Under the pieces are notes generated by a model. The model was not told the DNA's origin and did no database searches. It worked only from the letters and a program-made list of their open reading frames with translations. A stretch of DNA of 64,000 nucleotides from Clostridiales bacterium VE202-21 (GTDB lineage Bacteria > Bacillota > Clostridia > Lachnospirales > Lachnospiraceae): the NCBI GenBank assembly GCA_000509105.1, contig BAIF02000099.1:1-64000 (forward strand). Direction: 5' to 3'. Each line of letters opens with the position of its first letter. Within the stretch, counting starts at the first letter, position 1. Positions 42,794 to 56,360 of this stretch are shown in pieces. The position numbers were made by a program, and so were the translations under genes.

Positions 42794-43753
42794 TTAGAAG
42801 GGAGTATCACTGCCGACATAACAGGTTAATCCTGCCGTCTGAAACTGTACTTGAATACGATGCAGAATATCTTCAGAGCAGCCAGTCATATCGCGGCAGT
42901 CATATATACGGCCAAGCTGCTCATATTTGGAGGCCCCCAAACGGTGGAATGGTAAAATATTAACCTCTTTCGTTCCGATCTCTTTTATATAAGCAATCGT
43001 TTTTACAATATTAACTTCATCAGAATTATAACCATCAATGATAGGTATCCGTACGATATGGCGAAGTTTACCCTTGTGGCCAAGCTCGGCAATTTTTGCT
43101 ATGTTTTCAAGAATCAACTCGTTGCCAACCCCAGTAGCATCCTTGTGCCTTTCGGTATCCATATGTTTTATGTCGGTAAATGCCCAGTCTACATTTTCAT
43201 AAATCTGCTCAAGATGGGGCCAAGGCGCAAAGCTGCAGGATTCAGTTGCGGTATTGATATAACGCTCATGGCAGCGGCGCAAAAGCTCAGCAGCAAACTT
43301 ATACTGCACGGCAACCTCGCCGCCTCCTAAAGTCACGCCGCCTCCCGGTCCCCAAAAACGGCTTTCCCGTTCTATTCTGTGCATAATCTCATCAATCGTG
43401 TATACTTTACCGGCCGTTTTTAGCGCTTCATGATAACAATTTTCAGAACATTCAATTGTATCACAGCTGTCACATTTATTACGGTCAAATGAGACATGCT
43501 CCCCCTTTTGCTTTGGCAGGGAAATCGCATTATGCGGGCAGATATTCCTGCCTACACAACCGTAGCAGTTAACGCAATTACTAACACGATACATTAGCTG
43601 AGGCTGCAGCTGCTGGCTCTCAGGATTACAGCACCAGTAACATTTTAACGGACAGCCTTTAAAAAATATTAATGTCCGGCCTCCAGGACCATCATGCACC
43701 GAGAAACCCTGGATATCAAAAATGACAGCCTCGTTATTTGAATTGAGTTTCAT
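42794..43753 (-). CDS. Glycyl-radical enzyme activating enzyme (HpdA-like radical SAM)
   Basis: A 319-residue radical SAM protein that should install the glycyl radical on the large decarboxylase subunit. It has GRTLIFFKGCPLKCYWCCNPE with the CxxxCxxC SAM cluster, two further ferredoxin-type clusters (CVNCYGCVGRNICPHNAI; CDSCDTIECSENCYHEAL), the GGGVTLGGGEV block and DIKHMD. The two extra clusters and the length match HpdA, the 4-hydroxyphenylacetate decarboxylase activase, better than PflA. AAGGAA lies 11 bases before the ATG. It is 44 bases downstream of the PucR gene and likely co-transcribed with it. Confidence 0.9.
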   Translation of the reverse strand: MKLNSNNEAVIFDIQGFSVHDGPGGRTLIFFKGCPLKCYWCCNPESQQLQPQLMYRVSNCVNCYGCVGRNICPHNAISLPKQKGEHVSFDRNKCDSCDTIECSENCYHEALKTAGKVYTIDEIMHRIERESRFWGPGGGVTLGGGEVAVQYKFAAELLRRCHERYINTATESCSFAPWPHLEQIYENVDWAFTDIKHMDTERHKDATGVGNELILENIAKIAELGHKGKLRHIVRIPIIDGYNSDEVNIVKTIAYIKEIGTKEVNILPFHRLGASKYEQLGRIYDCRDMTGCSEDILHRIQVQFQTAGLTCYVGSDTPF

Positions 43754-43797
43754 TTTCTAAACGATTCCTTCCCGAACGGAGACCATGCAGAACAATA

Positions 43798-45471
43798 TCA
43801 CTTTAGATAACGATCAATGCTTAAGGCTAACCAAATGCTGCACCGACCGTCTTGGGTGGAAAGATCTACTGACAACCGTTCTTGTATTTGTTTAATGCGG
43901 TATTTTACTGTGTTAACGTGCAGATAAAGTGCACGGCTTGTTTCTATATAACTACAATTTTTATCCAGATATGTACTAAGTGTACTTACCAACTCTTCCG
44001 CATCTTTGTCATTATATAATTTGCCAAGCACCGTTTGGCTATAACGCAGTGCAGCCTCATCTTTACGCAGGATAGAATTCAGCAGAGCATAATGCCCAAG
44101 TTCATCGTAACACATCACGTTTTCTTTCAGACCAAACCTGCGGATACAACGCACAACATCAAGCGCTTCCAAACAGCTTTCACGGTAAGAGTGGATTCCC
44201 TTGCCTATGCATCCAATCCCCATCACAACATCCATTTTCATTCTTCCGCCAGTTAATGATTCCCAAATTGACATACCAATTTGTTTCATGTCCCGAATCC
44301 CCTTAGATCCAGTATCAACAAATACTACAAGGAATCCGTAATAGCCGCCCAGAATAACCTTGAAATTCTTCTGCGCAATGAAACTCTGTATGCTGTGAAT
44401 TGCATACTCTGTGAAATAATGATATTTAGACCAGTTTTTACTGTTTAGCTGCTCCTTCTGTGCTTTGCTGATCGGACTTATGACGATTGCTGACATATTC
44501 TTCTGTTCATCGAAGCCCATCATTTGAGCAAAATAGCTGACAACTTCTTTTTGATAATTTTCCGCCAAAAGAGCCTGTAAAAATACTTCTCCGGTATGCC
44601 ATGCAGTACTGTCAATATAGCTTTGATGATGATAAATTGTCAAAGCCAGAATATCAAGGCACCGCTCGACAAGCTGACGGTTCTCGGATGTTATTGCCCC
44701 CTCATATTCACAAATGCTGAAATAACCTATGACATTTTCTTTGAATATTATTGGCCATGTTTCCTGCCAAATCGTTCTATTATCCATGACCACTTGAGTG
44801 CGGATGGATGACTCGCCAACAATATGATCTACTATCACCTGCAGATTTTCTTCCCGTCGGCGGGCAAGCAAGGCTTCGGCAGCTCCTGCTGATTGATTGT
44901 CGCAACACGTCACATAACGCCACTCATGATCCTCGATTAAAACCGGATTGTTCAAATAACCTGCAAATATTCGTGATATATCAACGATGGATGCCCCATT
45001 AACCACGGCATCATGTAGATTAGAAAGAGCTGTTAAACTGCGATTCTTACCTTGCTCTTCCGCCTCCATAACAACTCTTAAAACGCATTGCGTTACATCA
45101 TTCTGCGTATCTCCCGGGGGCAGTTCAATGATGGGAAAATCATTTTCATTGCCTAACTGCAGCAGAGGCGCCGGAATTTCTTTTAAATACCGCTTCGTTT
45201 TAATAGCAAGGCAGCTGGCGCCGTGATCTATTAAATTTTTTGTCCATTCGCACAAGGCCTCAACGGATAATTGATTCTCACTGTGTTCATCCATAAAAGA
45301 TGCAACACTATGTACAAAATCTCCGCCCTTTAAATAAAAGGCGATATCGAGAATTTCTGCCACTGTCACCGCCTTCACTTCACGGTCTAAGCCTGCCTCT
45401 CCGGCTAATACAAGGGCTCCTTGCAACTCTGGTTCTTCTAAGACTAATTTTACAGTTACTTTTGGTGGCAT
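43798..45471 (-). CDS. PucR-family transcriptional regulator
   Basis: The protein of about 557 residues has an N-terminal PucR sensor domain (VKLVLEEPELQGALVLAGEAGLDREVKAVTVAEILD), a middle GAF/GGDEF-like CdaR region, and a C-terminal HTH_30 (TYLDKNCSYIETSRALYLHVNTVKYRIKQIQERL). Such proteins are usually activators responding to small catabolic substrates. The ATG at 45471 has AGAGGAAG upstream; the upstream extension to 45774 is not protein-like. It lies between the hpdC-like and hpdA-like genes, so it probably controls this locus. A possible TATAAT -10 is at 45587-45592 on the minus strand. Confidence 0.9.
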   Translation of the reverse strand: MPPKVTVKLVLEEPELQGALVLAGEAGLDREVKAVTVAEILDIAFYLKGGDFVHSVASFMDEHSENQLSVEALCEWTKNLIDHGASCLAIKTKRYLKEIPAPLLQLGNENDFPIIELPPGDTQNDVTQCVLRVVMEAEEQGKNRSLTALSNLHDAVVNGASIVDISRIFAGYLNNPVLIEDHEWRYVTCCDNQSAGAAEALLARRREENLQVIVDHIVGESSIRTQVVMDNRTIWQETWPIIFKENVIGYFSICEYEGAITSENRQLVERCLDILALTIYHHQSYIDSTAWHTGEVFLQALLAENYQKEVVSYFAQMMGFDEQKNMSAIVISPISKAQKEQLNSKNWSKYHYFTEYAIHSIQSFIAQKNFKVILGGYYGFLVVFVDTGSKGIRDMKQIGMSIWESLTGGRMKMDVVMGIGCIGKGIHSYRESCLEALDVVRCIRRFGLKENVMCYDELGHYALLNSILRKDEAALRYSQTVLGKLYNDKDAEELVSTLSTYLDKNCSYIETSRALYLHVNTVKYRIKQIQERLSVDLSTQDGRCSIWLALSIDRYLK

Positions 45472-45727
45472 AATACTTCCTCTTTCTGATATAATAATGT
45501 ACTCAAAATAAACCGACAATCCAGTACACGGTCTCATGGACTGCCTGTTGATTATTTTTGTTACAACGTACCGATATATATAAGATATTATATCATTATT
45601 TAAAGAAAACGGAAGTAAGAAAAAATAAATGCCTTTATTAACTTGATTTTTTTCTTCTTGGAAAAGTACCCCATGAAAATCGTTTTTGGCAAGAGGGCCT
45701 GCTGCTGCGTAACTGATGTTTCCGTAC

Positions 45728-45752
45728 GGACTGTGCAGGGAATGCACAGTCC
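45728..45752 (-). repeat. Perfect 10-bp inverted repeat in the hpdC-pucR gap
   Basis: GGACTGTGCA (45728-45737) and TGCACAGTCC (45743-45752) flank a 5-nt loop, extended by GTAC on both sides with small bulges. There is no T tract, so it is a weak terminator candidate, a processing site or an operator. Confidence 0.45.
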
Positions 45753-45782
45753 TGTACCGAACAGTTAGAAACATATACTTTG

Positions 45783-45830
45783 TTCTGCAGCTTTGCTGCA
45801 GATCCGCCCGTCAGGGCATGAATTACGGGG
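45783..45830 (-). repeat. 48-bp dispersed repeat, copy A
   Basis: On the minus strand this 48-bp segment matches 51500-51547 (plus strand) at 41 of 48 positions. Both contain a CTGCNGC...GCNGCAG hairpin in which one base pair changes A-T to T-A between copies, keeping the stem. It lies 18 bases after the hpdC-like stop codon, on the same strand. Confidence 0.6.
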
Positions 45831-45848
45831 TGCCCTTTGGGTATACCA

Positions 45849-46097
45849 TTATTCTGCAGGAGTAAAATCCTCGCAGCCGCCGAGATCCGGGTAAACCATA
45901 TCGCCGTCGCATGTGCCGAGATTGGGATCTTTCTCAGATACGATATATTTGCTGCAATATTTGCACTTATTAGCACGTAAAAATTTTTTACAAACAGGAG
46001 CGTCGATAGAAACTGTTTCCTTGCTGATTATGCATACACCGTTAAACACATCGCGGGCAGACAGATTGGCGCAATCCTTACATTTATCACACATCAT
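45849..46097 (-). CDS. Glycyl-radical decarboxylase small subunit (HpdC-like iron-sulfur protein)
   Basis: An 82-residue protein with nine cysteines in two groups: C6-x2-C9-x12-C22-x13-C36 and C45-x2-C48-x14-C63-x11-C75, plus C3. This matches the two [4Fe-4S] modules of HpdC, the small subunit required by 4-hydroxyphenylacetate decarboxylase. In HpdC, as I recall, the first ligand of one cluster is a histidine; here that position appears to be cysteine. The start is ATG 46097 (or 46094) because AAGGAGG lies 5-8 bases upstream; the longer ATG at 46136 falls inside the large-subunit gene. It begins 11 bases after the large subunit. Confidence 0.88.
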   Translation of the reverse strand: MMCDKCKDCANLSARDVFNGVCIISKETVSIDAPVCKKFLRANKCKYCSKYIVSEKDPNLGTCDGDMVYPDLGGCEDFTPAE

Positions 46098-46107
46098 ATT
46101 ATCCTCC

Positions 46108-48752
46108 TTAAACTTCTTCATATTCTGTACGGGCAATCAGTTCATCCTGAATAGGTTTGGAAACTTCGCACCAATACTGCGTGAACCCTGCCACACGGAC
46201 AAGCAGATCACGATAATTATTTGGATTGTCCTGCGCATCTTTAAGCATACGGGAATCAACAACATTGAACTGGATATGGAAGCCGCCGTTATCCATAAAG
46301 GAACGAATCATATCGAGCATCTTAGCGGAACCCATATTGCCCTTAATTGATGCAGGATGCAGCTTCATGTTCAGCTGAGTATTCTTGAAATTTGTATGGT
46401 CGATTACAGTTGCAGAACTAAGTACAGCGTAAGGTCCATTCTGGTCGGTGCCGGGGTAAGGTGACTGGCCGCCGTCTGCCAGAGTAACGCCTGCGAGCCG
46501 GCCGTCTGCAGAAGCGATATCAGCCTGGCCAAGCGGTCCGTGGGTACCTACAGACAGCATGGATGCACACCACTTGTTTCCGAATACATCGGTAATCTCT
46601 TCCACGGATTCCAGGAAGCAGTCCGCTACCTGGACATAGATATCGTCAACGTAAGCGTCATCATTACCGAATTTAGGTGCGCGCATACACAAAGCGTGTA
46701 TTCTTTCCCAGTCAGGGTTAGAAACATCCTTAGTCTGCTCCATCATGGAGAAGTTGCCCGTATCCAGTGCACTGATAAATCCGAAGTTGTTAAGTAAGAC
46801 ATCCTTAAGCTCATCAAGTGTAAATGCACGGTCGTCAAACACATTCTTCTTTATAGAGGCAAGAGAGTTTGCTGTGTTAACCTGACCGGTAATCCATGTT
46901 GTGAAGCAGCGGTTGTAACGAGAACCCGCATGGTCAATATCGGCTCCCTTTTCAATGCAGTCAGCAGACAGTGCAGAGAAAAATAACGGCTGGTCAAGCT
47001 CAAACGTTGCAGATACCTTCATATTATAAGTTTCTTCAAAAATCTGGATCACCTTTTTGAAATATGCCTTAAAGGTGTCCATAAGTTCATCAAATGTTTC
47101 GTATTTTTTGCCGGTTGCCGGAAATACACGGACATTTGTTCTGGGATCTACACCATCAAAAAGTACCAGTTCAAGAACCTTTGGAACATTAATGAAATTG
47201 ATTCCTGAAGAACTGTATGAACCTGCGCCAATCTTGTTGTCATATACAGCGCCGGGCTGGATCTCAAGGCAGCCGCCTATACTCCATGCTCTTGCATCTT
47301 CAAGAGTAATCCCTTCACATGAATGGTTCTTCATACAGTATTCAATGCCGACGCGGTTGCTTACCCAGCAGGCATACCACAACCGGTCTTGTTGCATTCA
47401 ATCCCCTTTTGCAGGAAAGTATTGGACAGCCTGCCGTCATAAATAATCGACAGAGTTGGAGAAACAGTAGGGCAATTAATTGCGGCCTGGATGAATAAGT
47501 ATTCCAGTTCGTTTTCGGCGCTGGAGCCATCAGGCTTGACACCGCCGAGACAGATGTTGTTAAATGTGTTACCTGCAAGTATACCAGTGGTACCTGCACA
47601 GGTTGCAATCTCAAGTTCCGTGTATTTAACGCGCATACATTCGAGAACCTCAAGAGTCTGCTCTCTGGTGATTCTGCCGTTATCAATATCCTCTTTCCAG
47701 TAGGGATAGAGAACCTGGCCAAGGCGTCCGGGAGAAAATCCAGAGCCCTGCATTTCGTTGTAAACCTCAAGCTGGCAGGTCCAGTGGAGCTGAAGGGCTT
47801 CCATAAAATCGCGGGGCGGATTCGATGAAATCCACTCAAGGCGCGCTGCCATGGCTTCGAAAACGGCCTTCTGTTCTGCGTCCTTTTCAAGAGAAGCAAG
47901 ACGGGTTGCTTCAGCGGCATACTTGCGAACCCAAATCTGTACGCCTTCGATTGCATAAATTGTAGCCTGCCAGTAAGCAACTTTATCTACTGCAGTACCA
48001 TCGCCCACATTAGCAGCAATCAGCTCTTTACAGCGGTCAATCATACCCTGGAAGCCTTTTTCAAATACGATCTGGTAGTTTGTGACACTGCGTCCGTGAC
48101 GGTTGCCGTACTCCATATCGGCAGCCATAAGGACAGCATTCTTGAAATTGACAAGGGTATCATACTCGGGATGCAGGGTACCCCACTTCCAACATGTATC
48201 CTCGGCAGACTTGTTCTGCCAGTAACGGCAAATTTCTATTAAAGCCGCATGTTCTTCAACGCGCATACCATAACGACGTGCCATAGAGAGAACCTCCGGA
48301 GTGCTTTCAGAAACGACGCCGCCGCCGGTTGCAAGTATCGTAATTTCTTCAAGAGCCTTATTTGAAGCCTTCTTGCTGTCTTTCTTTGCACGCTCTTCAT
48401 CGCTCAGAGGAAACTCGTTTGCTGTCCACGGAGTAATACTGGCGCCACGGACATACTTATTACGGCTCATAACTAATATTTCATCAGGGCGGATTGCTGC
48501 CTCAAGGTGGGAGAATGCACTCTTCATTGCAAGTCCGCGGCGGACCAGCGGATGCTGCCCCTCTTCTTTCATCCAGGTTCTTGTGTACCAGTAAGGGAAC
48601 GTTGTGTCAAGAGAAATCTTTGCATCATAAAATTCCTGCAATAATTTTCTCGCACGGGGACATGCACTCTTTTTTACCTCACGGTCCTCTACTTCCTCAG
48701 GGGGTGTGCCACAGGTGAAACATAAGTACTGGTCATTTGTTGTTGCTTCCAT
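46108..48752 (-). pseudogene. HpdB-like arylacetate decarboxylase, glycyl-radical large subunit (one frameshift)
   Basis: Two ORFs together encode about 880 residues that align end to end with 4-hydroxyphenylacetate decarboxylase (HpdB): FPYWYTRTW near the N-terminus, GGCLEIQPG with the thiyl Cys and catalytic Glu, and the glycyl-radical C-terminus RVAGFTQYWCEVSKPIQDE. The break is a single missing base at about 47365-47368: GCT|TGG reads GCTGG, and restoring it gives GMPAWVSNRVGIEY. Against the C. difficile sequence as I recall it, the carboxylate-binding Ser is kept, but the Phe, His and Glu that sense the ring hydroxyl correspond to Ala, Asn and Trp. The enzyme probably converts a different arylacetate to its methylarene. 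AAGGAGG precedes the ATG. Disruption may be real or a consensus error. Confidence 0.88.
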
Positions 48753-49087: not shown

Positions 49088-50083
49088 ATGATTTCTTTTT
49101 CTAATCATGTCGACGGGCTTGAAGCAATCTTCAGGAAAGTTGATGAGAATCAGGATTTGACAAAGGACGATGCAGTAAAACTTCTTAGTATAGACAGTCA
49201 TTCTTCGGAGTTTTATGCATTACTGGCTAAGGCGAATGAACTCTCCAGAAGAGAGTATGGAAGAAAGGGATATGTATTTGCACAGATTGGGCTCAATAGT
49301 GCGCCATGTACCGGGAATTGCAAGTTCTGTTCCCTTGCCAGGGATAGTTTTGTAGTAGAGGATAAAACAGAAAAGCCGTTGGAAGACATACTTGCAGAAG
49401 CCTCCAGGGCAGTGGAGGAGAAGGCGGACGCCCTGTTTCTTATGACCACGGCGGATTACGGGGTTGAGAGATTTCTGGAGGTTTCCGGAGAAGTGAAAAA
49501 ACTGCTGACACCGGAGATGATGTTTATTGCCAATATTGGTGACTTTGGACTGGAAACGGCAAAGCGGCTCAAGGAAGTGGGATACACAGGCGTTTACCAT
49601 ATTGTCAGAATGAACGAGGGACAGGATACGGATCTTCCAAAGGAGCAGAGAATTGCGACTCTGGATGCCATTAAAGCAGCGGGCCTGGAGTTGATCTACT
49701 GTGTAGAGCCGATCGGACCGGAACATACATACGAACAGATTGCAGATGAAATGCTGCGCGCCAGAGAATACAGTGTAAATGTTATGGCCTGTATGAAACG
49801 GGTAGGCGTGCCGGGTACTCCTCTTTTTGATAAAGGAGAGATTACAGATCTGGAACTGGCCAAGATTGTCGCTGCGGCAAGGCTGGTAACCAGGCCCAAA
49901 CAGTCTATGAATGTCCATGAGCCGAAGCAGATGGCGCTGCTCGCGGGCGTAAACCAGCTGTATGCGGAGATCGGGATTAACCCAAGGGACTGCAGCGTTG
50001 AAACCGGGACAAACCGGGGCTGTTCCATACCCGAAGTCAGGGCAATGCTTGCACAGGCAGACTATGATACATGTGGATCATGA
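49088..50083 (+). CDS. BioB-like radical SAM protein of a corrinoid gene cluster
   Basis: The 331-residue protein carries the radical SAM motif in APCTGNCKFCSLARDS (CxxxCxxC), then ALFLMTTADYG, IANIGDFG and a C-terminal region with RPKQSMNVHEPKQMALLAGVN and TGTNRGCSIPEVRAML. The overall pattern is BioB/HydE/PylB-like, but biotin genes are absent nearby. The start is ATG 49088 because TAGGAGG lies 7 bases upstream; ATG 49058 is less likely. The next gene, a UroD/MtaA-type methyltransferase, begins 47 bases on. The reaction is unknown; the context suggests a role linked to corrinoid methyl transfer. Confidence 0.85.
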   Translation: MISFSNHVDGLEAIFRKVDENQDLTKDDAVKLLSIDSHSSEFYALLAKANELSRREYGRKGYVFAQIGLNSAPCTGNCKFCSLARDSFVVEDKTEKPLEDILAEASRAVEEKADALFLMTTADYGVERFLEVSGEVKKLLTPEMMFIANIGDFGLETAKRLKEVGYTGVYHIVRMNEGQDTDLPKEQRIATLDAIKAAGLELIYCVEPIGPEHTYEQIADEMLRAREYSVNVMACMKRVGVPGTPLFDKGEITDLELAKIVAAARLVTRPKQSMNVHEPKQMALLAGVNQLYAEIGINPRDCSVETGTNRGCSIPEVRAMLAQADYDTCGS

Positions 50084-50129
50084 AAGTTTTTAAGATAAAA
50101 TATTGCAAAAAAGAAAGTGAGGAAGCAAA

Positions 50130-51494
50130 ATGAACCAGAAAGAAATTCTTATCAAAACACTGCACCACGGGGAGACAGACCAGGTGGCATGGGTACCATT
50201 TGCAGGCGTGCATGCGGGCAGCCTTCTGGGCTATACAGCTACGGAAGTGCTCCAGGACGGGGACAAACTGTTTGAATCTCTGATGGAAGTGAATAAGTTG
50301 TATAAACCGGCGGGACAGCCAGTTATCTTTGACCTGCAGGTTGAGGCGGAATGCCTGGGATGTAATCTGGTGTGGGCGGACGACGCTCCGCCGTCTGTAG
50401 CCAGCCATCCGATGGAAGGAGAAGAGGAGCTGGAGACACCCTGCTACTGCACCATTCCGACAAAAGAATCCGGTCGTATTCCTATGATCATGGACGTTAT
50501 GAAGCGTATGAAAGAAGCGGTCGGTGATACAACTGCATTATACGGCCTGATCTGCGGACCTTTTACACTGGCAACACATCTGCGCGGCAATGACATTTTC
50601 ATGGATATGTACGACGATGAGGATGCCGTGATTGAATTCCTGGAATACTGTGATGCGATTGCTATGAAGATGGCCGAATATTATATAGAAGCAGGTATGG
50701 ATGTGATCGCAGTAGTAGACCCGCTGATTTCCCAGATTTCTTCTGATCATTTTGAGATGTTCATGAGCGCACCGTTCAAGAAGCTGTTTGACCATATCAG
50801 AGAACTGGGCGCACTGTCTTCCTTCTTTGTATGCGGCGATGCGACAAGGAACATCGAGGTAATGTGCCAGACAGGCCCTGATTCCATCTCTATCGATGAG
50901 AACGTGGACCTGCTTGCAGCAAAGGCGATCACGGATAAGTACAACGTGGCGCTTGGCGGAAATATCCCGCTGACAACGGTCATGCTGCACGGTACACAGC
51001 AGGATAATATGAAGTTCGTGATCGACCTTCTGGATAATATGCCGAACAAGAAAAACTTCATCCTTGCTCCGGGCTGTGATATGCCGTATGCTGTTCCTGT
51101 TGAGAACACAATCGGTGTAGTACAGGCAATCCATGAGCCGGACTCCGTAAGAGAAATCCTGAAAAACTATGTGGCTGCAGACGAGGATATTGAAGTGGAA
51201 CTGCCGGATTACGAGCATTTGGAGAAACCGCTTGTGGAAGTATTTACACTGGATTCCGCAACATGTGCGGCATGTACGTATATGATGGGCGCTGCCAATG
51301 AGGCAAAGGAGACATTCGGTGACGCAATTGATATGATCGAGTATAAGTTTACGATCAAGGAGAACATTGCACGCTGCAAGAAAATGGGAGTTCCGAACCT
51401 TCCGTCTATGTATATTAACGGTGAATTAAAATTTCGTTCTCTTGTACCTGCGAAAGAAGAATTGGAGGCAGCAATCAAGGCTGTTATGCCCTAA
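50130..51494 (+). CDS. UroD/MtaA-type methyltransferase fused to a thioredoxin-like domain
   Basis: 454 residues. Positions 1 to about 345 form a uroporphyrinogen-decarboxylase-fold domain as in MtaA/MtbA/CmuA (HHGETDQVAWVPFAGVHAG, GLICGPFTLATHLRG, VDPLISQISSDHFEMF). MtaA-type enzymes bind Zn through H-x-C and a distal Cys; here the first motif reads FFVCGDA with no His, and the distal motif is APGCDMP. Residues 370-454 form a thioredoxin/glutaredoxin-like domain with CAAC (about 379-382) and a cis-Pro motif VPNLPSMYING. AAAGAAAGTGAGG precedes the ATG. It likely moves a methyl group to or from the corrinoid protein encoded downstream. Confidence 0.85.
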   Translation: MNQKEILIKTLHHGETDQVAWVPFAGVHAGSLLGYTATEVLQDGDKLFESLMEVNKLYKPAGQPVIFDLQVEAECLGCNLVWADDAPPSVASHPMEGEEELETPCYCTIPTKESGRIPMIMDVMKRMKEAVGDTTALYGLICGPFTLATHLRGNDIFMDMYDDEDAVIEFLEYCDAIAMKMAEYYIEAGMDVIAVVDPLISQISSDHFEMFMSAPFKKLFDHIRELGALSSFFVCGDATRNIEVMCQTGPDSISIDENVDLLAAKAITDKYNVALGGNIPLTTVMLHGTQQDNMKFVIDLLDNMPNKKNFILAPGCDMPYAVPVENTIGVVQAIHEPDSVREILKNYVAADEDIEVELPDYEHLEKPLVEVFTLDSATCAACTYMMGAANEAKETFGDAIDMIEYKFTIKENIARCKKMGVPNLPSMYINGELKFRSLVPAKEELEAAIKAVMP

Positions 51495-51499
51495 GGTCA

Positions 51500-51547
51500 C
51501 ACCGTAATTCAGGCCCTAACGGGCGGGTCTGCTGCTAAGCAGCAGAA
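51500..51547 (+). repeat. 48-bp dispersed repeat, copy B
   Basis: Matches copy A at 45783-45830 in reverse orientation with 41 of 48 identities. It begins 6 bases after the methyltransferase stop codon and carries the same hairpin with a compensatory base-pair change. Its end lies at the ATG just upstream of the CobW-like start. Confidence 0.6.
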
Positions 51548-51561
51548 TGAGGTATGAAATA

Positions 51562-52482
51562 ATGAGTAAACTGTATTTAATTACCGGCTTCTTAGGAGCC
51601 GGTAAAACTACTTTTTTAAAAAATTTTATAAATGAATTGTCAGACTACCGGCTGCATTTGATTATCAATGAATTTGGAAAAGAAGGCGTGGACGGGGAGC
51701 TTCTTAGAGAACTGGGAACGGCGCTGGATGAGATCAACAACGGTTCCATATTCTGTTCATGCAGGCTGGATAAATTCGAGGAAGTGCTTGAAAAAGCCCT
51801 TTCGGAAAAACCGGACATAATAATTGTGGAGGCTTCCGGCCTCTCCAATCCTATGAATGTCAGAAAAATCCTGCATCAGGAAGGCAAATTCTCAGATGTG
51901 GAATACATGGGAAGCATCTGCCTGGTTGATGCGAGACAGTTTCAGAAGGTTTATGAGACGGCAGTCGTGGTAAAGAAGCAGCTGGCGGTCAGTGATCTTG
52001 TGCTGGTCAATAAAACGGATCTGGCATCCAAAGAACAGATTGAGGAAATAAAGGGCATTATCAGAAAACACCGCCCGGAGGTTCCTGTACATACGACCAC
52101 CTTCGGCCGGATCGAAAGCGGCTGGCTGAATCCTGCCGCTCCTCCGGATAACCAGCCGGAAGAGCCTGTGATACAGAGCGCGGATATTACCTTGAAAAAA
52201 TACCTGCTCCGTTTGAATCCGGGATTGGAACTGAAAAAACTTCAGAAATTCATTGAAATGTTTCTGGATGATACTTACCGTGTCAAAGGATTTGTTGAAG
52301 TGCAGGGGGAGATTTATCTTGTGAACTGCGTGGGCAGTATCTACCAGGCTGAAAGGTTTGAAGGGAAGCCGGAACACGTCAATGATCTGGTGATTCTCTC
52401 AGGAAATGGCCTGCCCGTTAAAAAGTCTTTGAAAAAAGCGATGGCGTGGTATCCCGAGATTGCCGCGGAACTGAAAAAGTAA
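51562..52482 (+). CDS. CobW/P47K-family GTPase (metallochaperone-like)
   Basis: The 306-residue G3E GTPase has the P-loop GFLGAGKTTFLKNF (residues 8-21), the metal-binding cysteine motif FCSC in place of the usual CxCC, VEASGLSNP, NKTD, and a C-terminal CobW_C domain (VKGFVEVQGEIYLVNCVG). Such proteins deliver metals (Zn, Co) or cofactors to target enzymes. Between the methyltransferase and corrinoid protein genes it may load Zn or corrinoid. ATG 51562 follows GAGGT; the ATG at 51547 is in the repeat. Confidence 0.88.
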   Translation: MSKLYLITGFLGAGKTTFLKNFINELSDYRLHLIINEFGKEGVDGELLRELGTALDEINNGSIFCSCRLDKFEEVLEKALSEKPDIIIVEASGLSNPMNVRKILHQEGKFSDVEYMGSICLVDARQFQKVYETAVVVKKQLAVSDLVLVNKTDLASKEQIEEIKGIIRKHRPEVPVHTTTFGRIESGWLNPAAPPDNQPEEPVIQSADITLKKYLLRLNPGLELKKLQKFIEMFLDDTYRVKGFVEVQGEIYLVNCVGSIYQAERFEGKPEHVNDLVILSGNGLPVKKSLKKAMAWYPEIAAELKK

Positions 52483-52599
52483 ACAAAAAAAGAGATATTT
52501 GTACAAAGAGTTCCAAAAAAATTACTAAAAACAGAGCAGCAGATATTGTAAAATGATAACTAAAGCAGACACGCTTAATGAATGATGGAGGTATGTAAA

Positions 52600-53238
52600 A
52601 TGTCAAAGATTCAGGAAATTTCAGAATTCCTTCAAAAAGGAAGGGCAAAGAACGTAAAGGCACTGGTACAGGAGGCTCTGGATGAGGGGCTCGATCCAAA
52701 AGAGATTCTGAATGAAGGTCTTTTATCAGGAATGATGATCATTGGTGCAAAGTTTAAGAACAACGAAGTATTTGTACCGGAAGTTCTGGTAGCTGCAAGA
52801 GCTATGAATGCAGGTCTTACAGTCCTGGAGCCAAAACTGGTTGAGGTAGGTAATGAGCCGGTTGGAAAAGCTGTAATCGGAACAGTACAGGGAGACCTTC
52901 ATGATATCGGCAAGAACCTTGTCGTAATGATGCTTAAAGGAGCTGGATTTGAGATCCATGACATCGGTGTAGATGTGGAACCGGCTGTATTTATCGACAA
53001 GGCTGAAGAAGTAGGCGCGGACGTGATCTGTATGTCAGCTCTTCTTACAACAACAATGCCGAAGATGCAGGACTGCATTGACCAGCTGAACGAAAAGGGA
53101 CTTCGCGACAAGTATATCGTTATGGTCGGCGGCGCTCCGGTTAATGACAGCTTTGCAGAGCAGATTGGAGCAGACTACTATACACCAGATGCAGCAACAG
53201 CAGCAGAAGTTGCGAAGAAAGCAGTTTTGGAGAAATAA
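52600..53238 (+). CDS. Corrinoid (B12-binding) methyl-carrier protein
   Basis: The 212-residue protein has the helical cap domain (VQEALDEGLDPKEILNEGLLSGMMIIGAKFKNNEVFVPEVL) and the Rossmann B12-binding domain with the base-off His motif GDLHDIGKNLV, plus MSALLTTTM and GADYYTPDA. It is of the MtbC/MtaC class that carries the methyl group between substrate- and acceptor-side methyltransferases. GGAGGT lies 8 bases before ATG 52600. The substrate-side methyltransferase expected next to it is absent. Confidence 0.94.
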   Translation: MSKIQEISEFLQKGRAKNVKALVQEALDEGLDPKEILNEGLLSGMMIIGAKFKNNEVFVPEVLVAARAMNAGLTVLEPKLVEVGNEPVGKAVIGTVQGDLHDIGKNLVVMMLKGAGFEIHDIGVDVEPAVFIDKAEEVGADVICMSALLTTTMPKMQDCIDQLNEKGLRDKYIVMVGGAPVNDSFAEQIGADYYTPDAATAAEVAKKAVLEK

Positions 53239-53254
53239 GAGCCCTTTGGGAAAG

Positions 53255-53425
53255 TGCGGATTATAGTGACAAAGAGCATCGAATGAAGGAAACCGGTGTA
53301 AATCCGGTGCAGGCTTACCCCTACTGTAAACGTGGACGAAGAATAACAGCCATTGTCCGTCAGGATGAGAAGGCATTCCTAGGATGAAACGTGAGCCAGG
53401 ATACTTACATATCCCTATGGACCTG
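53255..53425 (+). promoter_or_regulatory. Cobalamin riboswitch upstream of the corrinoid activase
   Basis: Core elements are present: GGAAACCGGTGTAAATCCGG, GCAGGC, CCCCTACTGTAA, and the B12 box GTGAGCCAGGATAC near 53390-53403. A terminator candidate follows at 53478-53512. Adenosylcobalamin or related corrinoids should repress the downstream activase gene. Confidence 0.92.
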
Positions 53426-53475
53426 TTTTGGGTGGGAAACAGGATTCCGTTTGAATTATATAAAGTGTGTCAGCA

Positions 53476-53512
53476 GCAAACTCTTTTTACAAGGAGTTTT
53501 TCTTTTTATACT
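53476..53512 (+). terminator. Riboswitch expression-platform terminator
   Basis: AAACTC and GAGTTT flank a short loop and are followed by TTCTTTTT. The hairpin lies between the cobalamin aptamer and the activase start at 53626. Confidence 0.65.
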
Positions 53513-53625
53513 GGAAAATGAATGAAATACTGATACCTGCCCGGGGTTTTGGGCAAGTACGGATATGGTTGTCAAAACTGCGGGGGCAGAGCTTAGACTT
53601 CCGTTAGTTGAGAGAGGATAAGAAC

Positions 53626-55806
53626 ATGAAAATAACGGAATTTAATATAGAGATATGCAGAGAAAATGTATTTTCCCTGATAGACTGTTATGAAGACAGC
53701 GCTACCTACGATGATGTAATGGAAGAATATGAGGAAATGCTTCCGGAAGCATATAAAAAAATAGAGCCAATCGCACTGCTGGAATTCGGTGATGTGGAGG
53801 GATTTGAGCTCAGTCGGTATGGAGAGGGAATCCATCAGGCGCTCTACTGTGTCACTTCGGTGGGCGGTCAGCTGAGCCAGTGGTCCACACAGCTGTTCAA
53901 TGAGGGGGATTATCTGGGCGGTATGCTGGCGGATGCCATTGCGGATGACTATCTTTTCCAGATGGACCATCAGCTTCAGCCCTATATTATCGCCATGTGC
54001 AGGGAGAAAAAATGTGGAGTTTCCCGCCGCCTGGAGGCGCCCCAGGATATTCCGATGGAGGCCCAGAAAAAGGCGCTGGAGGTGACCGCAAGAGAAAACA
54101 GTGCAGGGATCCGTGTACTGGACAGCTGTATGTATGACCCGGTCAAGACGACCTGTCAGGTTTACCTGACTACGGATCATTCGGACATGTTCCGTATCCA
54201 TCATAATTGTGCAAGTTGCCCTAATGTCGGCTGCAGCCTTAGAAATGTCTCGGATTACACAATCACGCTTCATGACGGAGGCGACATCAGAGTACTGGAG
54301 GGCAGAAAGGGACATTCGCTGATGGAACTTCTCCAGGAACAGGGAATCTTCCTGCCGGCAGTCTGTGCGGGCAGGGGAACCTGCGGTAAATGCGGAATAC
54401 AGGTCCTTGAAGGGGACATTGCGCCTTCAGAGCAGGACAGGAAGTTCTTCAGCGGGGAGCAGCTGCAGGAGGGATACCGTCTGGCATGTAAGGCCTATCC
54501 TGAGGATGACTGCGTGATCGCTGTCGGGCTGCATAAGGAAGAAGAATTCGCGGTTCTGGCGGATGAGGAGCAGACAGCGGGAAAAGCGGCGAAAAGCAGT
54601 GCAAAGACCGGCCGCCGGTATGGAATCGCCGTGGACATCGGAACGACGACGATCGCCATGCAGCTGGTCAACATGGAGACACAGGAAGCGGAAGACGTTT
54701 TCACTACAATCAACAGGCAGAGGGCGTATGGTGCGGATGTAATCAGCAGAATTGAGGCCTCCAACGGCGGGAAAAGAGAAGCCCTGAGAAAAAGTATCCA
54801 GACTGACCTGATGCAGGGAATTGAGAGCCTGACAGAAAATGGGAAGATCCGGGTGGAGAAGATGATAATCGGAGCCAATACGACTATGGTACACCTGCTG
54901 ATGGGGTACTCCTGTAAAACACTGGGCGTATTTCCTTTCACCCCAGTTAACATTGACACCATACATACAACTTACAAAGAACTGTTTGAGCAGGAAGACA
55001 GGGACTTTGAGGTAGTGATTTTCCCTGGAATTTCTACTTATGTGGGCGGCGATATTGTGGCAGGCCTGTATTCTCTGGATTTTGATAAGAGAGAAAAGGT
55101 GTCTGTCCTGGTGGATCTGGGTACCAATGGGGAGATGGCGATTGGCAATAAGGACAGGATATTGACGACTTCAACGGCAGCGGGCCCTGCATTCGAGGGC
55201 GGCAATATTACCTTTGGCACGGGAAGCGTGCCGGGAGCAATCTGCAAAGTCGAACTGAAGGACGGCCATGCAGTTACCGGGACGATCCAGGATGCCAAAC
55301 CTGTCGGCATCTGCGGCACCGGGGTGATCGATATGGTATATGAGCTGGTAAAGGCGGAGCTTGTGGATGAGACTGGGCTAATGGAGGAAGATTATTTCGA
55401 CGACGGCTTTCCGCTTGCTGTCAGCAGCGATGGGACGGGGATCTCATTTTTCCAGAAGGATGTAAGGGAAATACAGCTTGCCAAGTCCGCAGTACGTGCC
55501 GGGCTTGAGACATTGATCCTGAACTTCGGCGCATCTTATGATGATATTGGGGCTATTTATATTGCAGGAGGCTTTGGATATAAGATGGATATCGTAAAAG
55601 CCGTGGGAATCGGGCTGCTTCCGGAAGAATGCCAAGATAAGATTGAGGCGGTAGGAAACAGCTGCCTGAAAGGAACCCGGACATACCTGTTAAGCAGCGA
55701 CTGCACAGAGCGCGTGCAGCGTATTCTGGAGAGTTCATCGGAAGTACAGCTCTCCAACGATAAACATTTTAATGAATTTTATATGGACTATATGTATTTT
55801 GAATAG
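53626..55806 (+). CDS. Corrinoid reductive activase (RACo/DUF4445) with MetH-activation-like N-terminus
   Basis: 726 residues in three parts. Residues 1 to about 210 resemble the B12-dependent methionine synthase activation domain (ALYCVTSVGGQLSQWS, ADAIADDYLFQMDHQLQ, RLEAPQDIPM, CASCPNVGCSLRN). Residues 220-305 are a [2Fe-2S] ferredoxin (CAGRGTCGKCGIQV and a later Cys in YRLACKAYP). Residues 330-726 are an ASKHA ATPase domain (GIAVDIGTTTIAMQLV, DLGTNGEM, IAGGFGYKMD). RACo proteins use ATP to reduce inactive Co(II) corrinoid to Co(I). GAGAGGA precedes ATG 53626. A cobalamin riboswitch controls it. Confidence 0.92.
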   Translation: MKITEFNIEICRENVFSLIDCYEDSATYDDVMEEYEEMLPEAYKKIEPIALLEFGDVEGFELSRYGEGIHQALYCVTSVGGQLSQWSTQLFNEGDYLGGMLADAIADDYLFQMDHQLQPYIIAMCREKKCGVSRRLEAPQDIPMEAQKKALEVTARENSAGIRVLDSCMYDPVKTTCQVYLTTDHSDMFRIHHNCASCPNVGCSLRNVSDYTITLHDGGDIRVLEGRKGHSLMELLQEQGIFLPAVCAGRGTCGKCGIQVLEGDIAPSEQDRKFFSGEQLQEGYRLACKAYPEDDCVIAVGLHKEEEFAVLADEEQTAGKAAKSSAKTGRRYGIAVDIGTTTIAMQLVNMETQEAEDVFTTINRQRAYGADVISRIEASNGGKREALRKSIQTDLMQGIESLTENGKIRVEKMIIGANTTMVHLLMGYSCKTLGVFPFTPVNIDTIHTTYKELFEQEDRDFEVVIFPGISTYVGGDIVAGLYSLDFDKREKVSVLVDLGTNGEMAIGNKDRILTTSTAAGPAFEGGNITFGTGSVPGAICKVELKDGHAVTGTIQDAKPVGICGTGVIDMVYELVKAELVDETGLMEEDYFDDGFPLAVSSDGTGISFFQKDVREIQLAKSAVRAGLETLILNFGASYDDIGAIYIAGGFGYKMDIVKAVGIGLLPEECQDKIEAVGNSCLKGTRTYLLSSDCTERVQRILESSSEVQLSNDKHFNEFYMDYMYFE

Positions 55807-55883: not shown

Positions 55884-56360
55884 ATGGTTGATAAATTAAA
55901 CGGAATGCCGGAAGCTTCTGCAAAGATAAAAGGATCGGATAAATACCCAGAGATCCATGGAATGGTTTATTTCTATGAAGTATACGGAGGGACGATCGTG
56001 TTGGCTGAGGTATACGGGCTGCCGGATGAAAATGCGCCGGACATGAGCAGATTTTTTGCCTTCCACATTCATGAAGGGAAACAATGTTCCGGGAATGCTG
56101 AGGAGCCTTTCGCAGATGCCGATGGGCATTTTAATCCCGAACATACGGATCACCCGGAACATGCCGGTGATCTGCCGCCTCTGCTGTCTACACACGGTGC
56201 AGCCTGCAGTGCGGTATATACCGGGAGATTTTACCCGGATGATGTGGTCGGCAGAACAGTGGTCATCCATATGAACCCGGATGATTTTAAGACACAGCCG
56301 TCAGGAGACAGCGGCGAAATGATTGCCTGCGGCGAGATCCATGAATGGGTGGGGGAATGA
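55884..56360 (+). CDS. Cu/Zn superoxide dismutase-like protein, no signal peptide
   Basis: The 158-residue protein keeps the metal ligands of Cu/Zn SOD: HIH in FAFHIHEGKQC, DGHFNP, the His/Asp zinc loop DHPEHAGDLPP, and VVIHMNPDD, as well as the disulfide cysteines (KQC and ACGEI). The active-site Arg before the second Cys (normally GxRxACG) is replaced by Met in SGEMIACGEI. No signal peptide is present, so it should be cytosolic, unlike most bacterial SodC. GAGGAGG precedes the ATG. It may be a superoxide-handling or metal-binding homologue; full SOD activity is uncertain. Confidence 0.85.
   Translation: MVDKLNGMPEASAKIKGSDKYPEIHGMVYFYEVYGGTIVLAEVYGLPDENAPDMSRFFAFHIHEGKQCSGNAEEPFADADGHFNPEHTDHPEHAGDLPPLLSTHGAACSAVYTGRFYPDDVVGRTVVIHMNPDDFKTQPSGDSGEMIACGEIHEWVGE

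Follow-up and report, generated by a model that had tools for sequence, protein, structure and literature searches.

The locus described here raises the question of how a corrinoid methyl-transfer cluster works when it carries no substrate-specific methyltransferase (MtxB) of the familiar kind. Corrinoid methyltransferases decide the fate of methylated sulfur, selenium, oxygen and nitrogen compounds in gut and sediment anaerobes, and the substrate is known for few members of the URO-D type. The cluster occupies positions 49088-55806 of the stretch of 64,000 nucleotides that was analysed (the window), and its six elements, identified with Pfam, NCBIfam and RF00174, are collinear on the plus strand. 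They are a BioB/HydE/PylB-like radical SAM protein of 331 aa (49088..50083; Pfam Radical_SAM, with a CX3CX2C cluster motif), a URO-D/MtaA-type methyltransferase fused to a thioredoxin-like domain and called MtaA-Trx here (50130..51494; URO-D, Thioredoxin_3), a CobW/COG0523 GTPase (51559..52482; cobW and CobW_C), an MtgC/MtbC-like methyltransferase corrinoid protein (52597..53238; B12-binding_2 and B12-binding, NCBIfam TIGR02370), a cobalamin riboswitch (53235..53426; RF00174, 70.1 bits, E 3e-15) lying between the corrinoid protein and activase genes, and a RACo/RACE-type reductive activase of corrinoid proteins (53626..55806; Fer2, Raco_middle, RACo_C_ter). This is the order given in the original prediction, all elements of which are present and were correctly identified.

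The genome from which the window comes is Lachnospiraceae-like, with 5.3 Mb in 143 contigs, and is 96.8% complete. Co-occurrence was counted over 397 Lachnospiraceae genomes, and gene neighbourhoods were counted within 8 kb on either side of 75 fusion homologues, 67 of which had enough sequence for a downstream CobW gene to be scored. The arrangement of the window genes is beyond chance, with CobW at 47 of the 67 loci and the radical SAM protein and the fusion together in 8 genomes, against 0.44 expected. The cluster is genuine: an accessory, conserved system for corrinoid methyl transfer that contains an undescribed thioredoxin-fused methyltransferase.

On the minus strand at 42794-48752 the window carries a glycyl radical decarboxylase set (large subunit, small subunit, regulator and activase), the large subunit of which resembles 4-hydroxyphenylacetate/indoleacetate decarboxylase. 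An interruption of the reading frame at about 47390, within the region of the active site, divides that subunit into two open reading frames; the interruption is either real or an assembly error. Directly 3' of the corrinoid activase gene, at 55884-56360, is a Cu/Zn superoxide dismutase-like gene, in a genome of strict-anaerobe type.

The thioredoxin-fused methyltransferase and its GTPase

MtaA-Trx is the most distinctive part of the cluster. Its methyltransferase domain (about 50142-51137, Pfam URO-D E 2e-46) is followed by the thioredoxin-like domain (about 51225-51491), for which the Thioredoxin_3 match has an E of 4e-5, just under the cut-off. The predicted model has a pLDDT of 93 and a pTM of 0.89, and the closest solved structure to it is MtbA 4ay7; by fold and sequence together, the closest characterised relative is the methylcobamide:CoM methyltransferase MtbA. 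The match to TIGR01463, the MtaA/CmuA subfamily model, reaches 153.5 bits against a curated cut-off of 235.4. The nearest named relative of the window fusion is from Faecalicatena orotica, at 90% identity. The family spans Bacillota, Chloroflexota, Spirochaetota and a few other groups, and is carried by 16 of the 397 Lachnospiraceae genomes. In the nearest literature found, ie the mlp, Cdm and COG0523 papers, with subscription literature outside the search, such a thioredoxin fusion is not described.

The metal site of the family differs from the usual one in a sharply defined way. In place of HxCG...GC, all 72 aligned sequences carry FVCG and PGCD. Cysteines C235 and C316 are both conserved, one sequence having a gap at C316, and the zinc-site histidine is a phenylalanine in every member, so that MtaA-Trx might not be a zinc methyltransferase. 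A second histidine, H150, is invariant in the 72 sequences, and the four HxCG...GC enzymes of the same genome have a different residue there; judged from the alignment, it may stand in for the lost ligand. In the thioredoxin-like domain, both cysteines of the CAAC motif (379-382) are likewise invariant.

The product of the adjoining gene is a P-loop GTPase with a CobW_C domain, as in the COG0523 family, and in the 48 sequences compared a GSIFCxC motif is conserved at the place of the CXCC metal-binding motif of that family. A recognisable CobW gene starts within 700 nt 3' of the fusion gene in the 47 loci counted above, and further loci have one farther downstream. The family is coherent in its fusion, its partner GTPase and its active-site change, and predictions that can be put to the test follow from it for metal use, coupling to thiols and the methyl acceptor.

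Absence of MtxB and a second URO-D enzyme

The original prediction stated that MtxB is missing, and this held for the three families searched. No relative of MTTB (PF06253), MtaB (PF12176) or MtmB (PF05369) was found near the cluster or elsewhere in the 96.8% complete genome. An MtxB-type gene lies within 8 kb of the fusion in only five of the 75 loci (three MtmB, one MTTB, one MtaB). The sole matches to PF00809 (Pterin_bind) are dihydropteroate synthase and a 798-aa MetH-like protein which also has a corrinoid domain, and the genome therefore appears to have no separate H4folate:corrinoid methyltransferase of the MtrH/MtvA/CdmA kind.

The premise behind the prediction, that an MtxB of the MtaB, MtbB, MtgB or MttB type is indispensable to known systems, is not supported. 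In mlp gene clusters, which have neither MtxB nor an H4folate methyltransferase, UroD-superfamily enzymes are found on the substrate side (PMC10418091), and URO-D-type enzymes likewise act on the substrate side in the Cdm, Odm, Vdm and Cmu systems (PMC13222342). The absence of MtxB is thus not anomalous, and the idea that a corrinoid cluster without it is incomplete is corrected. The suggestion that the URO-D protein itself might act on the substrate side makes chemical sense, and there is precedent for it. As to the claim of an undescribed route, the thioredoxin fusion is indeed undescribed, while the precedents for URO-D-type enzymes argue against a wholly new system.

The substrate-side partner is probably supplied by other URO-D-superfamily methyltransferases. 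There are 43 matches to the URO-D family above the curated cut-off in the window genome, and some few of these could be fragments of a single gene. Among the best 30 of the 43, the fusion aside, four show HxCG...GC, the site of the thiol type. One of the four, encoded on contig C42 (locus L244, 8404-9411), has the motif HNCG...GCD, ie a His-Cys-Cys site. Directly adjoining it is a PocR regulator, an orthologue of the PocR/AraC protein usually found with this corrinoid protein; it is 84% identical to the one that accompanies the corrinoid protein at another locus (L192). At 18 loci sampled from genomes free of the fusion, the corrinoid protein usually lies with a PocR/AraC regulator and an activase. 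A URO-D enzyme stands beside it at 8 of these; in all seven whose motif was read the site is HNCG...GCD, and the C42 enzyme is 54-75% identical to the URO-D enzymes beside the corrinoid protein in relatives. The C42 enzyme is most likely the second methyltransferase of the window system, a partnership which we infer, as its gene and the window operon sit on different contigs.

The 43 URO-D matches compare with two free-standing corrinoid proteins found, in addition to MetH, which represents an unusual expansion. Several of the URO-D genes adjoin AraC-type regulators.

The reading we favour, and to which about half of our confidence is given, is that of a thiol/selenol corrinoid methyl-transfer system in which all methyltransferases are of the URO-D type, a cousin of the mlp gene clusters. 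From their sequences, two or more thiol-type URO-D methyltransferases, MtaA-Trx and the C42 enzyme, plausibly share the corrinoid protein. RACo would bring the corrinoid to the Co(I) state. One URO-D enzyme would then load it with the methyl group of a methylated sulfur or selenium compound, and the other would pass this group on from the corrinoid to a thiol. CobW would supply the site in MtaA-Trx with zinc or some other metal. Through its CAAC thiols, the thioredoxin domain probably acts on the substrate, reducing or presenting a thiol at a metal site without the usual histidine.

The direction in which MtaA-Trx would work is hinted at by a few relatives in which it adjoins MtmB, MTTB or MtaB, and which somewhat favour an acceptor-side (MtxA-like) role. 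In one genome (G050, locus L166 on contig 7) MtaA-Trx and CobW are divergent from, and adjoin, a pyrrolysine-type MtmB gene with an in-frame TAG; its corrinoid protein, an activase, PylB, PylC and PylD are encoded at the same locus. Relatives of MtmB, MtaB or MTTB neighbour five other homologues of the fusion. MtbA of methanogens has a similar position, and by this analogy the acceptor-side role would be slightly favoured, short of proof.

A tentative extension, to which we give about a quarter of our confidence, is that MtaA-Trx represents a new mechanistic class of corrinoid methyltransferase. Methyl transfer would be coupled to the thioredoxin dithiols at a site with Phe for His and with His150, served by a dedicated CobW of altered motif and, in some lineages, by the BioB-like radical SAM protein, and one-carbon units would follow a path separate from the H4folate and CoM schemes. 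To our knowledge, CoM is not expected in these bacteria.

The corrinoid protein scores 209.6 bits against TIGR02370, slightly under the cut-off of 215.3. The activase has the 2Fe-2S ferredoxin, RACo middle and RACo C-terminal domains of the RACo/RACE type, and its NCBIfam match to AcsV, of 320 bits, is under the cut-off. At its N terminus the activase has an additional domain, about 200 aa long, which is rich in cysteine and, by eye only, resembles a methionine-synthase-activation domain. Riboswitch control of the activase was considered as a conserved feature and rejected. No cobalamin riboswitch was seen 5' of RACo in the relatives scanned, so its placement is apparently a local arrangement of the window.

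The distribution of the corrinoid protein bears on two other explanations. MtaA-Trx alone might serve as both donor- and acceptor-side enzyme, as MtsA does for dimethyl sulfide, in which case the operon would be complete except for its regulation and the C42 enzyme would serve another substrate. That one URO-D protein can demethylate a substrate is known for MtsA and CmuA (PMC10418091, PMC13222342 and, in part, general knowledge), and there are operons (eg L035, L056, L058 and L064) in which fusion, CobW, corrinoid protein and activase occur with no other recognised URO-D gene nearby. We regard this as rather unlikely, since in relatives the corrinoid protein has a different URO-D partner and since the fusion often has no corrinoid protein nearby. 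Close orthologues of the corrinoid protein (at least 77% identity) occur in 33 of the 397 Lachnospiraceae genomes, of which only 11 carry MtaA-Trx.

The other explanation takes MtaA-Trx and CobW as an independent thiol- or metal-handling unit, eg for alkyl-cobalamin dealkylation or metalloid handling, which in the window lies beside corrinoid genes by chance. It is consistent with the loss of the zinc histidine throughout the family, and with a corrinoid protein within 8 kb of the fusion at only 28 of the 75 loci. Among 41 fusion loci with full flanks, 10 have only CobW from the set of genes tested and 8 have none of the set. Many Chloroflexota and Spirochaetota loci consist of fusion and CobW without a nearby corrinoid protein, which counts against the thiol/selenol reading. 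Against independence are the 16 of 16 fusion-carrying Lachnospiraceae genomes with a non-MetH relative of the corrinoid protein, the joint occurrence of the fusion and a close corrinoid orthologue in 11 genomes where 1.3 were expected, and the loci at which MtmB, MtaB or MTTB adjoins the fusion. We consider a chance association of this sort improbable.

The radical SAM protein and clues to the substrate

The predicted model of the radical SAM protein has a pLDDT of 90, and the closest folds among the matches listed are BioB (Z 34.7), HydE (33.4) and PylB (31.3). It shares their fold class and the CX3CX2C motif, of which C74, C78 and C81 are invariant among 21 sequences. Identity to these nearest solved structures is only about 20%, and the NCBIfam cut-offs are widely missed: 57 bits against 225 for bioB (TIGR00433), 33 against 348 for PylB, and no match to HydE at E 0.001. 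The protein also has conserved residues of its own (RxxEGxDT, EPIGPEH, NPRD) that are unlike those of the three enzymes.

Co-occurrence with the fusion gave a divided result. Of the 11 genomes positive for the radical SAM protein, 8 carry the fusion, a figure far above chance in which kinship is corrected only by a genus-level repeat, yet about half of the Lachnospiraceae genomes with the fusion do not have the protein. In relatives the gene orders include radical SAM-fusion-CobW, fusion-CobW-radical SAM and corrinoid-fusion-CobW-radical SAM-DUF2284-activase, and the linkage changed at least seven times on the tree. From the co-occurrence and the adjacency in several gene orders, the protein is probably linked in function to the fusion, and it is most likely an accessory enzyme which makes or modifies the substrate or the acceptor. 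An undescribed one-carbon route in which it acts on the substrate side, the original suggestion, is very unlikely in spite of this association: half of the sampled fusion-carrying genomes lack it, Pfam finds no B12-binding domain in it, its BioB/HydE/PylB-type fold gives no sign of methyl transfer to cobalt, and its distant relatives adjoin an NMT1/SsuA-like ABC transporter gene instead.

Those distant relatives (28-34% identity; L181, L182 and L211) stand beside genes for NMT1/SsuA-like substrate-binding proteins.

No gene beside the window cluster or at the loci of its relatives names the substrate. A class II aldolase occurs at L034 and, among the other members, only at L056, where it lies elsewhere; an NMT1/SsuA-like ABC transporter is near L041 and L042; a hydantoinase-like gene is beside the C42 enzyme and at L204; and an aquaporin and a second CobW are found at L037, L045 and L051. 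The selD gene is above its cut-off in 9 of 16 fusion-carrying genomes, which is not clearly over the background quoted for clostridia, and the link of the cluster to selenium is weak.

Comparison with known systems

Co-localisation of COG0523 subfamily 13 with corrinoid-dependent methyltransferases was reported in 2009 (Haas et al., PMC2770081), and the pairing of CobW with such enzymes is therefore not new as such. The window gene resembles that subfamily in its neighbourhood, ie a CobW-family GTPase gene beside corrinoid- and zinc-dependent methyltransferases, and differs in having GSIFCxC for CXCC.

With MtaA, MtbA and MtsA of methanogens, MtaA-Trx shares the fold and the two metal-site cysteines, and CobW-type genes have been reported beside mtaA, mtaB and mtaC. 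It differs from them in the phenylalanine at the histidine ligand and in the fused thioredoxin domain. The classical MtxB-MtxC-MtxA arrangement has an MtxB of its own, and in the window genome none of the MTTB, MtaB or MtmB type was found.

The nearest likeness is to the type I mlp clusters (Kountz and Balskus, PMC10418091), the hosts of which are likewise anaerobes, mostly Firmicutes. Both have URO-D-type (SCMT-like) methyltransferases, a corrinoid protein and a Ram/RACE-type activase, and neither has MtxB (looked for here as MTTB, MtaB and MtmB) or an H4folate methyltransferase. Of the two candidate methyltransferases, the C42 enzyme has the His-Cys-Cys site of the mlp type and the fusion does not. 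By analogy, the system would work in the mlp manner, which is a likeness and not proven membership. The window locus has a single URO-D gene in place of the mlp2/mlp3 pair, its methyltransferase has a fused thioredoxin domain and no zinc histidine, and CobW and the radical SAM protein are added.
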